A stretch of 64,000 nucleotides of DNA from Natronocalculus amylovorans (GTDB lineage Archaea; Halobacteriota; Halobacteria; Halobacteriales; Haloferacaceae). The stretch's first letter is position 1, and every line of letters starts with the position of its first letter. Location: the NCBI RefSeq assembly GCF_023638035.1, contig NZ_JAKRVX010000004.1, positions 186,001 to 250,000 on the forward strand. The letters are read 5' to 3'. The notes beneath the pieces are model-generated. The model ran no database searches, was not told the DNA's origin, and saw only the letters and a list, made by a program, of their open reading frames with translations. Of this stretch, positions 6,301 through 12,271 are shown piece by piece. A program made the position numbers and the translations under genes.

Positions 6301-8274
6301 ATGCGTGGGCTTGCCGACCCCGATCGATCCGAGCGAACACTCCTTGTTGTGCTCGGTATTACGCTCCTTTCGCTTGCTGTTCGGCTCTTTGATCTTGGTG
6401 GGCGTGTGTTCCATTGGGATGAAGGTCGCGTTGGCTACTGGACACTCCGGTATATCGAGACTGGGTTTTTTGAGTATAGCCCGATCATCCATGGCCCATT
6501 CCTCCCGATTACAAACGGCTACATCCTCTCGATCCTCCCTGCCACAGATGCGAATGCACGGCTCATTGTGGCGATCGTTGGTGGACTCCTCCCGCTTTCA
6601 GCGTGGCTCTTTCGTGAGCGACTCCGCGATACAGAGGTAATTGCGCTCTCTATACTTCTCGCATCCACGCCAATCTTGCTGTACTACAGTCGATTTATGC
6701 GGAACGATATTCTCGTGGGTGGATTCGCATTTCTTGCCTTTGCGTTTGCAGTTCGGGCGATCGATACGCACGATATCCGAAAGCTCTACCCTGCGGCATT
6801 CTTCCTTGCACTTTCGTTTACCACAAAAGGGAACGCAATTCTGTATGTTGCATGTTTCGGTGGTGCACTCTTTCTGGCGCTTGATCACAAACTTGTTCGA
6901 GAATCTCGACAGAACGGCTCGCTCAAAACAACGCTCCGAAACTGGATTACAGCAGCACGATCGGAGCTTGCGAAACGCTCAGGACGTATTCATACTGCTC
7001 TCTGGATCCCACTCCACACTCTAGGACTTGCGGGAACATTCCTTGCAGTGATTGTGTTCTACTACACTCCACGTCCGGAGTTTCACACCGCCCTTCGAGA
7101 GCCATCACAGTGGGGTTGGATGCTTCATGTATCGACGATCGGTGCCGCGGAGAAACTCTACGATCTATGGTTCGACAGTGGGCTACAGGGGCACGACTAT
7201 CTTCCATACCTGTTTGATCTGACAGAGACACTCGTCTACGGTGCTGGGATCTTGATCGTGTTTGCTGTTCTTGGATTTATCGCAGACGGATATGCGCGAG
7301 CCGATCTTGATACGGAGACTGGCTCACGGGCGATTGTTGCGTTCACCTTCTATTGGGCAGTGGCAAGCGTCATTGGCTACCCGGCAGCAACCGATATCCG
7401 CGCTGGCTGGACAGCGACACACGTTGTACTCCCGCTTTCGATACCAGCCGCTGTTGGGCTCGCCTACACGTATCGGGTTGTAAGAAACACATGGCAAACA
7501 CGAACTGAATCGGCTACGTCTGCACCGTCATCAGCACAGCCACACGCGACAGATGGTGGGACAGACACAAGTGAGACTGTCAGTGGTGAGGAAACAACTG
7601 AAACTGAGACCGAACACAACGCCACCCCACCCAAAGCAAGGCGCATTCTTGGATTGCAGCGATCACACGCACTCACACTCACGTTGGTCTCTCTACTCCT
7701 GCTTGGGGCTGTCGTTGGGCTTGCTGCGCCAAACGCAGCCTACTGGAACTCAACGAATCCAGACCATACGGAGATGGTCCAGTGGGCACAACCGCACAAC
7801 GACGTGAAACCAACGCTCGAAGATGTCGATCGCGTCATTCGCCATACGGACACGGGTGACAGCGCTGACGTGCTCTTTGTTGGAACAGCCAATCCAAACA
7901 ATGCTGACGATGTGACACTGTATCTCGAAAATGAGTCCACTGCGGAGACAAAACCAGTAGGTGGACCGGCATGGCACAGTCGGCTCCCATTCCCTTGGTA
8001 CATAGAGCGCGCAGGTGGCCACACTGAGAGCGTTCCACCGGAGGCAACTGCTGATGAATTTGTTGACGATGCACCGCCAGTCATAATCGCACGTGATTGG
8101 GACCGATCGTGTGACGATGAGGGCGATCGCTGTCTTGATGCGGCATTCAGCGATGACTACGTCGCATACGAACACGAGGCCCGACTGTGGGCCTACGAGC
8201 TTGTGTTCTATATTGATGAAGAGGCACTTGCCGATGCCCGTGCTGCAGATGGACTCTCCGATCGGCGCGAATAA
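6301..8274 (+). CDS. Agl23-like polytopic membrane protein (TIGR03663 type), possible glycosyltransferase
   Basis: From the ATG at 6301 this is a 657-residue protein with about ten or more membrane helices. The first loop carries GGRVFHWDEGRVGYW, a DE-containing motif typical of GT-C/PMT-like glycosyltransferases. A low-complexity acidic Ser/Thr/Glu linker (about residues 400-445) precedes a last helix and a roughly 180-residue soluble C-terminal domain. The family is annotated as Agl23, reported as associated with flippase activity in protein N-glycosylation; the exact reaction is unproven. A TTG at 6271 would add ten residues but lacks support. It is divergent from ribH and lies 70 bases upstream of purK. 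Confidence 0.8.
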   Translation: MRGLADPDRSERTLLVVLGITLLSLAVRLFDLGGRVFHWDEGRVGYWTLRYIETGFFEYSPIIHGPFLPITNGYILSILPATDANARLIVAIVGGLLPLSAWLFRERLRDTEVIALSILLASTPILLYYSRFMRNDILVGGFAFLAFAFAVRAIDTHDIRKLYPAAFFLALSFTTKGNAILYVACFGGALFLALDHKLVRESRQNGSLKTTLRNWITAARSELAKRSGRIHTALWIPLHTLGLAGTFLAVIVFYYTPRPEFHTALREPSQWGWMLHVSTIGAAEKLYDLWFDSGLQGHDYLPYLFDLTETLVYGAGILIVFAVLGFIADGYARADLDTETGSRAIVAFTFYWAVASVIGYPAATDIRAGWTATHVVLPLSIPAAVGLAYTYRVVRNTWQTRTESATSAPSSAQPHATDGGTDTSETVSGEETTETETEHNATPPKARRILGLQRSHALTLTLVSLLLLGAVVGLAAPNAAYWNSTNPDHTEMVQWAQPHNDVKPTLEDVDRVIRHTDTGDSADVLFVGTANPNNADDVTLYLENESTAETKPVGGPAWHSRLPFPWYIERAGGHTESVPPEATADEFVDDAPPVIIARDWDRSCDDEGDRCLDAAFSDDYVAYEHEARLWAYELVFYIDEEALADARAADGLSDRRE

Positions 8275-10154: not shown

Positions 10155-11468
10155 CTATTCCCAGTTGTGCAGCGCGTCCTCGAATATCGCGTGAACGTCA
10201 GCTTTTGTAACCGGTCGTGGATTACACCTGAGCAGTCGCTGTTGACTCTCTACTGTTCGTTCGGCAAGCCAGTCGATATCATCTTCTTCAATTCCTGCAA
10301 GTTCTGTGAGGCCGCTTGGGATCACTGATAGGTCGCGTTGGAGCCGAATATACTCCTTTTTTGCCTCATCTGCGGCCGATCGGGTGCTCATCCCGCTCGT
10401 GTCCGCACCTAACATCTCTGCAACCCTCACAAACCGTTCTGGATCGCTTGCAACGTTGTATCCCAGTGTTGTCGCGGGTGTCAACGCAGCGATCGTCTCG
10501 CCATGATAGGTGTGATACCGATTCCCGACTGGATACGCCATCGCGTGACAGACGCTTGCTCCCGCCGTCAACCCTGCAATGGCACCGAATAGCGCTCCCC
10601 GTAGCATTGCCGACCGTGCTTCCAAATCGTCGCCGTTGTTGACGACGCGGCGGATGTTGCTGGATAAGAGGTCGATCGCTTTCTCGCTGAACATCTCCGT
10701 CAGGCCAGTTCGTCCAGCATACACTGGTCGATCGCGTGGATCGGACGGACGCAAGAGCGTGTCGTATGGGTGGGTTGTGTAGCCTTCGATCGCATGTCCA
10801 AGCGCATCCATTGCGGACTTTGCAGACATCTCCGGATCAAGCGTTGTCGTCAGCGTTGGATCAAGCACTGCGGCATCCGCACGGATATGATTGCTCGAAA
10901 TCCCCTCTTTGATCTCTTTTTCAGGAACCGACAGGATCGCAACCGGTGAGATCTCAGATCCGGTCCCAGCGGTTGTTGGCATGAGCACAAGCGGCGGGCC
11001 GGATTCTGTAAGCGGCTCTCCATCGCCGGTCGGTGCTGCAATGTAGTTGATTACCTCGCCACCGTTTGCGATAATCGTTCTCGTCGCCTTTGCAATATCC
11101 AAACAGCTCCCCCCACCAAGTCCGATGTAGAAGTCATAGCCCGCATCACCCATCTCTTCGCGAACGAACGAGACACACTCATCGACGATCGAAATCGATG
11201 GCTCACGCTCGGATTCGTCCCACACATCAGCCTCGTACCCATCTGCTTCTAGTTGGTCGGATACTCGATCGACGTGCCCGAGCGAGACGAGCGTGTCATC
11301 TGTGACAATAAGCCCACGACTATCTGTCGGCACGCCGAGATCGGCGAGCTGAAAACCAACTTCATTCGTTGCGTCCGCTCCGAACCGTATCTGTGGCATC
11401 TGGATATGCCACACGGACTCTGTGGAGAGCTCATGTGGCGATGCAGAGACCGATCGTTCGTAGCTCAC
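10155..11468 (-). CDS. Iron-type alcohol dehydrogenase (hydroxyacid-oxoacid transhydrogenase-like)
   Basis: A group III (iron-type) dehydrogenase of about 437 residues. It shows the NAD-binding GGGSCLDIAKA, the strand-loop LMPTTAGTGSE, and the metal-binding DALGHAIEGYTT and CHAMAYPVGN segments. The insertion around RDRPVYAGRTGLTEMF and the overall length resemble hydroxyacid-oxoacid transhydrogenases, which oxidise 4-hydroxybutyrate to succinate semialdehyde while reducing 2-oxoglutarate. The specificity is inferred from resemblance only. A GTG at 11468 forms a GTGA overlap with the upstream lactonase stop; a GTG at 11477 is possible but less neat. The tight coupling to a lactonase is the best clue to function. 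Confidence 0.85.
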   Translation of the reverse strand: MSYERSVSASPHELSTESVWHIQMPQIRFGADATNEVGFQLADLGVPTDSRGLIVTDDTLVSLGHVDRVSDQLEADGYEADVWDESEREPSISIVDECVSFVREEMGDAGYDFYIGLGGGSCLDIAKATRTIIANGGEVINYIAAPTGDGEPLTESGPPLVLMPTTAGTGSEISPVAILSVPEKEIKEGISSNHIRADAAVLDPTLTTTLDPEMSAKSAMDALGHAIEGYTTHPYDTLLRPSDPRDRPVYAGRTGLTEMFSEKAIDLLSSNIRRVVNNGDDLEARSAMLRGALFGAIAGLTAGASVCHAMAYPVGNRYHTYHGETIAALTPATTLGYNVASDPERFVRVAEMLGADTSGMSTRSAADEAKKEYIRLQRDLSVIPSGLTELAGIEEDDIDWLAERTVESQQRLLRCNPRPVTKADVHAIFEDALHNWE

Positions 11469-12271
11469 TGTCCCCACCCATCCTGAATTGTTGCAAACTG
11501 ATCCGGGTCGTGTCCATAGATAACCTCTGCATCGTGTTTTCGTTGGAGATTTTTGATCAGTTGTAGACTCTCAAACCAGTACTGTTTGCCCCACAATAGA
11601 TGTGCACCAAGTGCGATCTCATCTTCATAATTCTCTTTCTGGTACAACTCATCGCCAGTGAAAATCACCGTCCCATCGTCATCTAGATGAATCATCGTCC
11701 CTGTTAGCCCGGGCGTGTGTCCGGGAAGTCTGATGAACTCGATATCCTCGAAGTGCGTTTCACGATCGCGATGCAGTATTTCCCAATTTAGATCGTGATC
11801 GAAGTCATCGAGAATGTATGCGCCGCTTCCTTCTGTGGTTTTTGCGCTGTAGTAGGCATACTTAAACTCCTTTTCATGCACGAATATCGGCACGTCAGTC
11901 CCATCGAAGAATTCCAAGCCACCTGCATGATCCAGGTGTAAGTGCGTCTGAAAGACGTAGTCAATATCCTCAATTCCAAACCCAGCCGCTTCCAGATCGT
12001 CATCTAACCGATGTTCGTGTGCGTCATACGGATAGAACGCCTGCGAGAGCGCATCCGGCCAATGGCCATTAAGCGCGTCATGATGAGAGCCGGTGTCCCA
12101 CAAGATGGTTCCTTCCGGATGTTCGATTACAAGACTCCACACTGGAATCTCACTATAGTCTGTATCCGGGTTTGGTTCATCCTTTGTTCCAAGCACATGA
12201 CCCTCCATCATATAGCTGAGGTCACATTCGAGCGATCCGCGATCGAGTACGTGAACAGTTGCATCTACCAT
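11465..12271 (-). CDS. Metallo-beta-lactamase-fold lactonase (AHL lactonase / BlcC-like)
   Basis: A 268-residue MBL-fold hydrolase. The metal motif QTHLHLDHAGG (H110, H112, D114, H115) is followed by LPGHTPG, FTGDE and YGHDP, which supply the remaining His/Asp ligands. This full ligand set and the length fit the AiiA/AttM (BlcC) class, which opens acyl-homoserine lactones or gamma-butyrolactone. The 4-base overlap with an iron-type dehydrogenase suggests a catabolic lactone route rather than signal quenching. A TATA-like stretch (about 12293-12300) lies 25 bases before the ATG. Other MBL esterase activities cannot be excluded. Confidence 0.85.
   Translation of the reverse strand: MVDATVHVLDRGSLECDLSYMMEGHVLGTKDEPNPDTDYSEIPVWSLVIEHPEGTILWDTGSHHDALNGHWPDALSQAFYPYDAHEHRLDDDLEAAGFGIEDIDYVFQTHLHLDHAGGLEFFDGTDVPIFVHEKEFKYAYYSAKTTEGSGAYILDDFDHDLNWEILHRDRETHFEDIEFIRLPGHTPGLTGTMIHLDDDGTVIFTGDELYQKENYEDEIALGAHLLWGKQYWFESLQLIKNLQRKHDAEVIYGHDPDQFATIQDGWGQ

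Follow-up and report, generated by a model that had tools for sequence, protein, structure and literature searches.

Do two overlapping genes in a haloarchaeon encode a small pathway that opens a lactone and oxidizes the product? This question is raised by a locus in a 64,000-nucleotide stretch of Natronocalculus amylovorans DNA—hereafter the window. A preliminary description of this locus had proposed an MBL-fold lactonase (MBL-I) followed by an iron-type dehydrogenase (ADH-I), likened to the Agrobacterium route from gamma-butyrolactone (GBL) via 4-hydroxybutyrate (4HB).

The GTGA overlap and the outer range 10155–12271 given there stand, as both open reading frames are found at these positions on the minus strand (Table 1), flanked by purK/purE and nuo genes. 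GTGA is shared by the MBL-I stop codon TGA (11467–11465) and the ADH-I start codon GTG (11468–11466). The open reading frame list offers an alternative GTG for ADH-I further upstream, at 11477; orthologues, however, start with (V/M)SYERSVSA and hence place the start at 11466–11468. The MBL-I start is consistent with its orthologues, which begin MVDA. Pfam scores are well above cut-off throughout: 76 bits for Lactamase_B in MBL-I, and 131 and 119 bits for Fe-ADH and ADH_Fe_C in ADH-I.

Table 1. Features of the lactonase–dehydrogenase locus in window coordinates
Feature	Position	Strand	Evidence
MBL-fold lactonase MBL-I, 268 aa, ATG start, first gene of pair	11465..12271	-	Pfam Lactamase_B; AhlS/GcL-like
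Group III iron-type alcohol dehydrogenase ADH-I, 437 aa, GTG start, HOT-like	10155..11468	-	Pfam Fe-ADH + ADH_Fe_C; tree; fold matches Fe-ADHs
GTGA stop/start overlap of MBL-I and ADH-I	11465..11468	-	Sequence
HLHLDH metal-binding motif of MBL-I, residues 110-115	11927..11944	-	Sequence; invariant alignment columns
First HOT-type insert of ADH-I, about residues 233-253 (HPYDTLLRPSDPRDRPVYAGR), between alpha5 and alpha6 helices	10710..10772	-	Alignment with FucO, BlcB, bacterial HOT
ADH-I H308 to H322 (HAMAYPVGNRYHTYH), site of canonical HOT second insert	10503..10547	-	Alignment; insert absent

The pair is a real unit, beyond chance. In a sample of 394 Halobacteria genomes, ADH-I (64–80% identical) occurs in 77 and MBL-I (63–80% identical) in 68. 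Conservation of the pair across haloarchaea, a check proposed by the preliminary description, is borne out: MBL-I lies directly upstream of ADH-I on the same strand in 64 of the 77 ADH-I genomes, distributed over many families. The spacing of these 64 pairs ranges from -1 to +11 nt (stop codon not counted), with the 4-nt overlap in 12, and we infer a single transcript for the two genes. Only four genomes bear MBL-I without an adjoining ADH-I. The converse holds for 13 genomes—two of them at contig ends—eight of which carry MBL-II (see below) or a related lactonase elsewhere. The neighbors of the pair vary by genus, with ribosomal-protein genes in Natrialbaceae as against purK/purE and nuo here; hence, the pair is a self-contained two-gene cassette. 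As a clue to the substrate, genomic context was discarded for the same reason, being informative only for the aldehyde dehydrogenase and acyl-CoA ligase genes described below. In one genome (L149, G275; about 7490–7670), MBL-I has suffered an in-frame internal deletion of every metal ligand, while the coupled ADH-I downstream is intact. Together with the 13 genomes lacking an adjoining MBL-I, this shows that ADH-I can persist without its partner.

MBL-I shows the ligand pattern of the AiiA/AhlS/AttM superfamily: HxHxDH, a further His, an Asp, and a His, plus a catalytic Tyr. The ligands H110, H112, D114, H115, H185, D207, and H254 and the catalytic Tyr210 are invariant among 19 aligned homologues, which, with the Pfam assignment, upholds the earlier description of an MBL lactonase with all metal ligands. 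Among NCBIfam models, MBL-I scores highest with AhlS (NF047976; 167 bits, curated cut-off 475), ahead of AttM/BlcC (117 bits, cut-off 390), AiiA (112 bits), and 4-pyridoxolactonase (106 bits), every score staying under the respective cut-off. The best PDB sequence match is 6cgy (4.9e-41), and the predicted fold retrieves GcL and related quorum-quenching lactonases as top Foldseek matches. The AlphaFold models of the two pair proteins, built from shallow alignments, reach pLDDT values of only 67 and 74; hence, folds were used and pocket geometry was left aside. In sequence, MBL-I is nearer to the AhlS/GcL family than to BlcC. It shares fold, full metal ligand set, and catalytic Tyr with these lactonases—its best matches in sequence and fold—but is only about 30–33% identical to them, and the haloarchaeal clade is coupled to an Fe-ADH. 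Because generalist activity is typical of this lactonase family, GBL cannot be deduced as the substrate from homology. NCBI names such haloarchaeal proteins 'N-acyl homoserine lactonase family protein'.

ADH-I bears the hallmarks of group III iron-type alcohol dehydrogenases, namely an Fe-ADH domain, D-H-H-H ligands, and a GGGS cofactor loop; D221, H225, H308, H322, and the GGGS at 118–121 are invariant among 21 aligned homologues. T56-D57 is invariant among orthologues, and an Asp at the D57 position favors NAD+ (PMC5125639). Tyr312 sits at the position of FucO His267—a Tyr in place of this second His is common to hydroxyacid-oxoacid transhydrogenase (HOT), BlcB, and the window enzyme (HAMAYP, HALAYP, and HANAYP, vs HGMAHP in FucO).

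The likeness to HOT, seen already in the preliminary description, holds in part. In a tree, ADH-I, its more distant relative ADH-II (see below), and two-insert bacterial HOTs form one clade (support 95/94), so that the enzyme does not fall among unrelated alcohol dehydrogenases, and BlcB forms a separate clade with a blc-like ADH of Peribacillus (97/89). HOT is represented in tree and alignment by two bacterial proteins, from Rhodococcus ruber and Mycobacterium dioxanotrophicus, which stood in for animal HOT (ADHFE1). All HOT proteins are said to have two inserts, of 19 and 13 residues (PMC5125639). The first, about 19 residues long, is present in ADH-I, ADH-II, and both bacterial HOTs and absent from FucO, BlcB, and the Peribacillus pB ADH in the alignment. 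The second, which spans 13 residues and lies between helices alpha8 and alpha9, is present in both bacterial HOTs but missing from the window ADH-I and the 20 orthologues examined. Hence, ADH-I is not a canonical HOT, and the name 'hydroxyacid-oxoacid transhydrogenase', which NCBI gives to ADH-I-type haloarchaeal proteins despite the missing insert, is only partly earned. First insert, metal ligands, tree position, and this name are common to ADH-I and HOT (cd08190; ADHFE1), yet ADH-I is 34% identical to bacterial HOT. ADH-I plausibly works like HOT or BlcB and, because the second insert is missing, is no less likely to be a plain NAD+-linked dehydrogenase than a transhydrogenase. The reaction that defines HOT turns 4HB and 2-oxoglutarate into succinate semialdehyde and D-2-hydroxyglutarate, using a tightly bound cofactor. 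Mammalian HOT converts 4HB to succinate semialdehyde (PMC5125639), and the C. elegans orthologue (HPHD-1 type) oxidizes 3-hydroxypropionate (PMC10096224). YdiJ-like genes of the D-2-hydroxyglutarate dehydrogenase family (PMC9504171), two of which lie in the N. amylovorans genome, were considered as support for a transhydrogenase and dropped, since they are near-universal (377/394 Halobacteria).

The route would need a succinate-semialdehyde dehydrogenase (SSADH), which had been predicted to lie elsewhere. Two haloarchaeal genera have it linked to the pair, a third retains a decayed form, and N. amylovorans itself carries an unlinked homologue. The order MBL–ADH–SSADH occurs in Halobacterium hubeiense, where NCBI names the third protein 'NAD-dependent succinate-semialdehyde dehydrogenase', and in two Halolamina-type genomes, Halolamina salifodinae (L120, taken as the same genome as G261) and G029—in all, just three of the 77 ADH-I genomes. 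The hubeiense and Halolamina cassettes are 86–90% identical, though the families differ. In Natrialba asiatica, whose ADH-I is 91% identical to that of H. hubeiense, ADH-I is directly followed by an 85-nt 5' SSADH remnant (L118, 11337–11418) matching the intact SSADH of H. hubeiense and Halolamina. This high cross-family identity and the remnant suggest that the three-gene cassette is mobile and that its SSADH gene can drop out if the genome has an unlinked copy elsewhere. The linked cassettes may even stem from one horizontally spread event, and were therefore not counted as independent. The unlinked N. amylovorans homologue (G000:C20:45107-46456), one of four Aldedh proteins in this genome, is 73.5% identical to the linked SSADH; its best NCBIfam model is NADP-dependent SSADH (598 bits, cut-off 730). 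As the SSADH cut-offs are not reached, the substrate of these enzymes, too, would be succinate semialdehyde by inference. Across the sample, SSADH occurs in 66/77 ADH-I genomes vs 183/318 others (Fisher p about 3e-6, shared ancestry ignored), and is absent from 11 ADH-I genomes.

How does this set relate to bacterial systems? The blcABC (attKLM) operon on pAt of Agrobacterium fabrum C58, whose GBL degradation has been reviewed (PMC5924552), combines SSADH, Fe-type ADH, and MBL lactonase and follows the same logic from lactone over hydroxy acid and semialdehyde to acid. Its gene order, however, is SSADH–BlcB–BlcC, rather than lactonase–ADH(–SSADH); it has an IclR regulator, BlcR, and no such gene stands beside the window pair, whose SSADH is unlinked. 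BlcB and BlcC are only 30.5% and 29.8% identical to the window proteins and belong to other family branches. Because of this identity of about 30%, the closeness of the lactonase to AhlS/GcL, and the grouping of the dehydrogenase with HOT-type enzymes, the haloarchaeal pair is judged not to be an orthologue of blcABC; we think it is a functional analogue. Of the proposed likeness to BlcB and BlcC, the pairing logic thus remains, and a close relationship does not, with BlcB outside the HOT/haloarchaeal clade.

A cluster on pB of Peribacillus sp. R9-11 has these three enzyme types as neighbors (ALDH, AhlS-type lactonase at 556 bits, Fe-ADH), but its Fe-ADH, unlike ADH-I, lacks HOT inserts and falls with BlcB in the tree. 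In A. tumefaciens HAMBI 105, the order is acyl ligase–Fe-ADH–thioesterase–gabD. These several distinct arrangements indicate that such enzyme types have been joined repeatedly in nature. On catabolic plasmids of R. ruber (pYYL1.1) and M. dioxanotrophicus (L143, L144), a two-insert HOT gene is followed by one for a YdiJ-like FAD/Fe-S protein, with an SSADH gene near this pair in M. dioxanotrophicus; the arrangement fits 4HB oxidation plus D-2-hydroxyglutarate recycling in cyclic-ether degradation.

A separate, more distant set in Halobacteria comprises ADH-II (about 43% identical) and MBL-II (about 56% identical). Next to MBL-II, in divergent orientation, there is often an AMP-forming acyl-CoA ligase similar to short-chain acetate-CoA ligases (L194, L199, L200, L203, L204, L139, L165, L117, L127), as in Natrinema, Halospeciosus, and Halorientalis; in Halorientalis, a small protein that looks thioesterase-like by eye follows. 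The ligase may point to CoA activation of a hydroxy acid or to acyl-homoserine lactone (AHL) use, as in the QsdA–QsdC pairing of qsd (PMC6262395). Several in-frame stops listed for ADH-II matches are apparently just the C-terminal stops, the translation having run on beyond the gene end. N. amylovorans has a second lactonase paralogue, 43% identical to MBL-I (G000:C14:24761-25528; L210).

Among haloarchaea, Haloferax mediterranei fed with GBL builds it into its polyester as 4HB units (PMC3880725). In the N. amylovorans genome, model TIGR01836 for class III PHA synthase found no match, though it did not match any archaeal control either. No description of a lactonase–dehydrogenase pair in haloarchaea was found in the literature searched, in line with the earlier claim of novelty, which the Haloferax result and the existing NCBI protein names nevertheless narrow.

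Taken together, we favor, at a probability of roughly 0.58, a unit leading from lactone over omega-hydroxy acid and semialdehyde to diacid, with GBL, 4HB, succinate semialdehyde, and succinate as the leading case. MBL-I and ADH-I would form a translationally coupled catabolic unit, in which MBL-I hydrolyzes a small lactone—most likely GBL or a close relative—to the omega-hydroxy acid. ADH-I would then oxidize the terminal alcohol to the semialdehyde, passing the hydride to NAD+ or to 2-oxoglutarate as in HOT, and SSADH, linked or unlinked, would supply succinate for the TCA cycle. The GBL/4HB case is favored by the retention of the pair, the SSADH linkage and remnant, the SSADH homologue in the same genome, and SSADH co-occurrence, as well as by the bacterial parallels, the action of mammalian HOT on 4HB, the haloarchaeal conversion of GBL, and the invariant T56-D57. 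It is weakened by the rarity and possible single origin of SSADH linkage, by the ADH-I genomes lacking SSADH or an adjoining MBL-I, by the decay in L149, and by the generalist nature of the lactonase family.

The same chemistry might instead act on another lactone or omega-hydroxy acid—delta-valerolactone/5-hydroxyvalerate, 6-hydroxyhexanoate, or a substituted gamma-lactone—with the semialdehyde going to a different ALDH. Other Fe-ADH subfamilies do use 5-hydroxyvalerate and 6-hydroxyhexanoate (Table 1 in PMC5125639), several Aldedh proteins are at hand in this genome, and the linked SSADH stays under its NCBIfam cut-off. Nevertheless, the linked ALDH is nearest to SSADH models, and ADH-I belongs to the HOT branch, in which the enzymes studied so far act on 4HB or 3-hydroxypropionate; we regard this alternative as unlikely.

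Quite improbable is a role in signal quenching, whereby MBL-I would open AHL-like signals, and the ADH, plus the acyl-CoA ligase near related lactonases, would merely clear side products. AHL-degrading AhlS and GcL are the nearest characterized lactonases, and the ligase divergent to MBL-II recalls QsdA–QsdC; BlcC, however, opens AHLs too, yet its operon serves GBL (PMC5924552). Moreover, ADH and SSADH play no part in AHL opening, and the ligase resembles short-chain acetate-CoA ligases and does not adjoin MBL-I in the window.

Still less probable is repair, overflow, or the reverse direction, in which the Fe-ADH—an enzyme type reversible in general—would reduce succinate (or malonate) semialdehyde to the hydroxy acid, MBL-I would reopen a spontaneous lactone, and 3-hydroxypropionate would be the substrate as for C. 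elegans HPHD-1: the persistence of ADH-I beside the decayed lactonase of L149 would suit this, but a dedicated coupled lactonase and a downstream SSADH are better suited to oxidation, and beta-lactones are unlikely cell metabolites.

For the lactone-degrading unit favored here, a further idea is offered tentatively, at somewhat less than even odds: haloarchaea might have built a widespread catabolic module for lactones and 4HB separately from blcABC, combining an AhlS-like lactonase with a HOT-branch dehydrogenase that has a single insert. Such a module would spread and decay in haloarchaea as one cassette, and its form would show the role of the second insert. If true, this role might be, for example, what separates a transhydrogenase with bound NAD from an ordinary NAD+-linked dehydrogenase. 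'Transhydrogenase' and 'AHL lactonase', as automatically assigned to these proteins, exceed what the sequence supports. What HOT proteins do outside animals has been stated as unknown (PMC5125639), and the conserved context—a lactonase before and, in some genomes, an SSADH after—makes the function of the archaeal HOT branch directly testable. The pair is also a candidate genetic basis of lactone use in haloarchaea, for which the 4HB-containing bioplastic of GBL-fed H. mediterranei offers a comparison.
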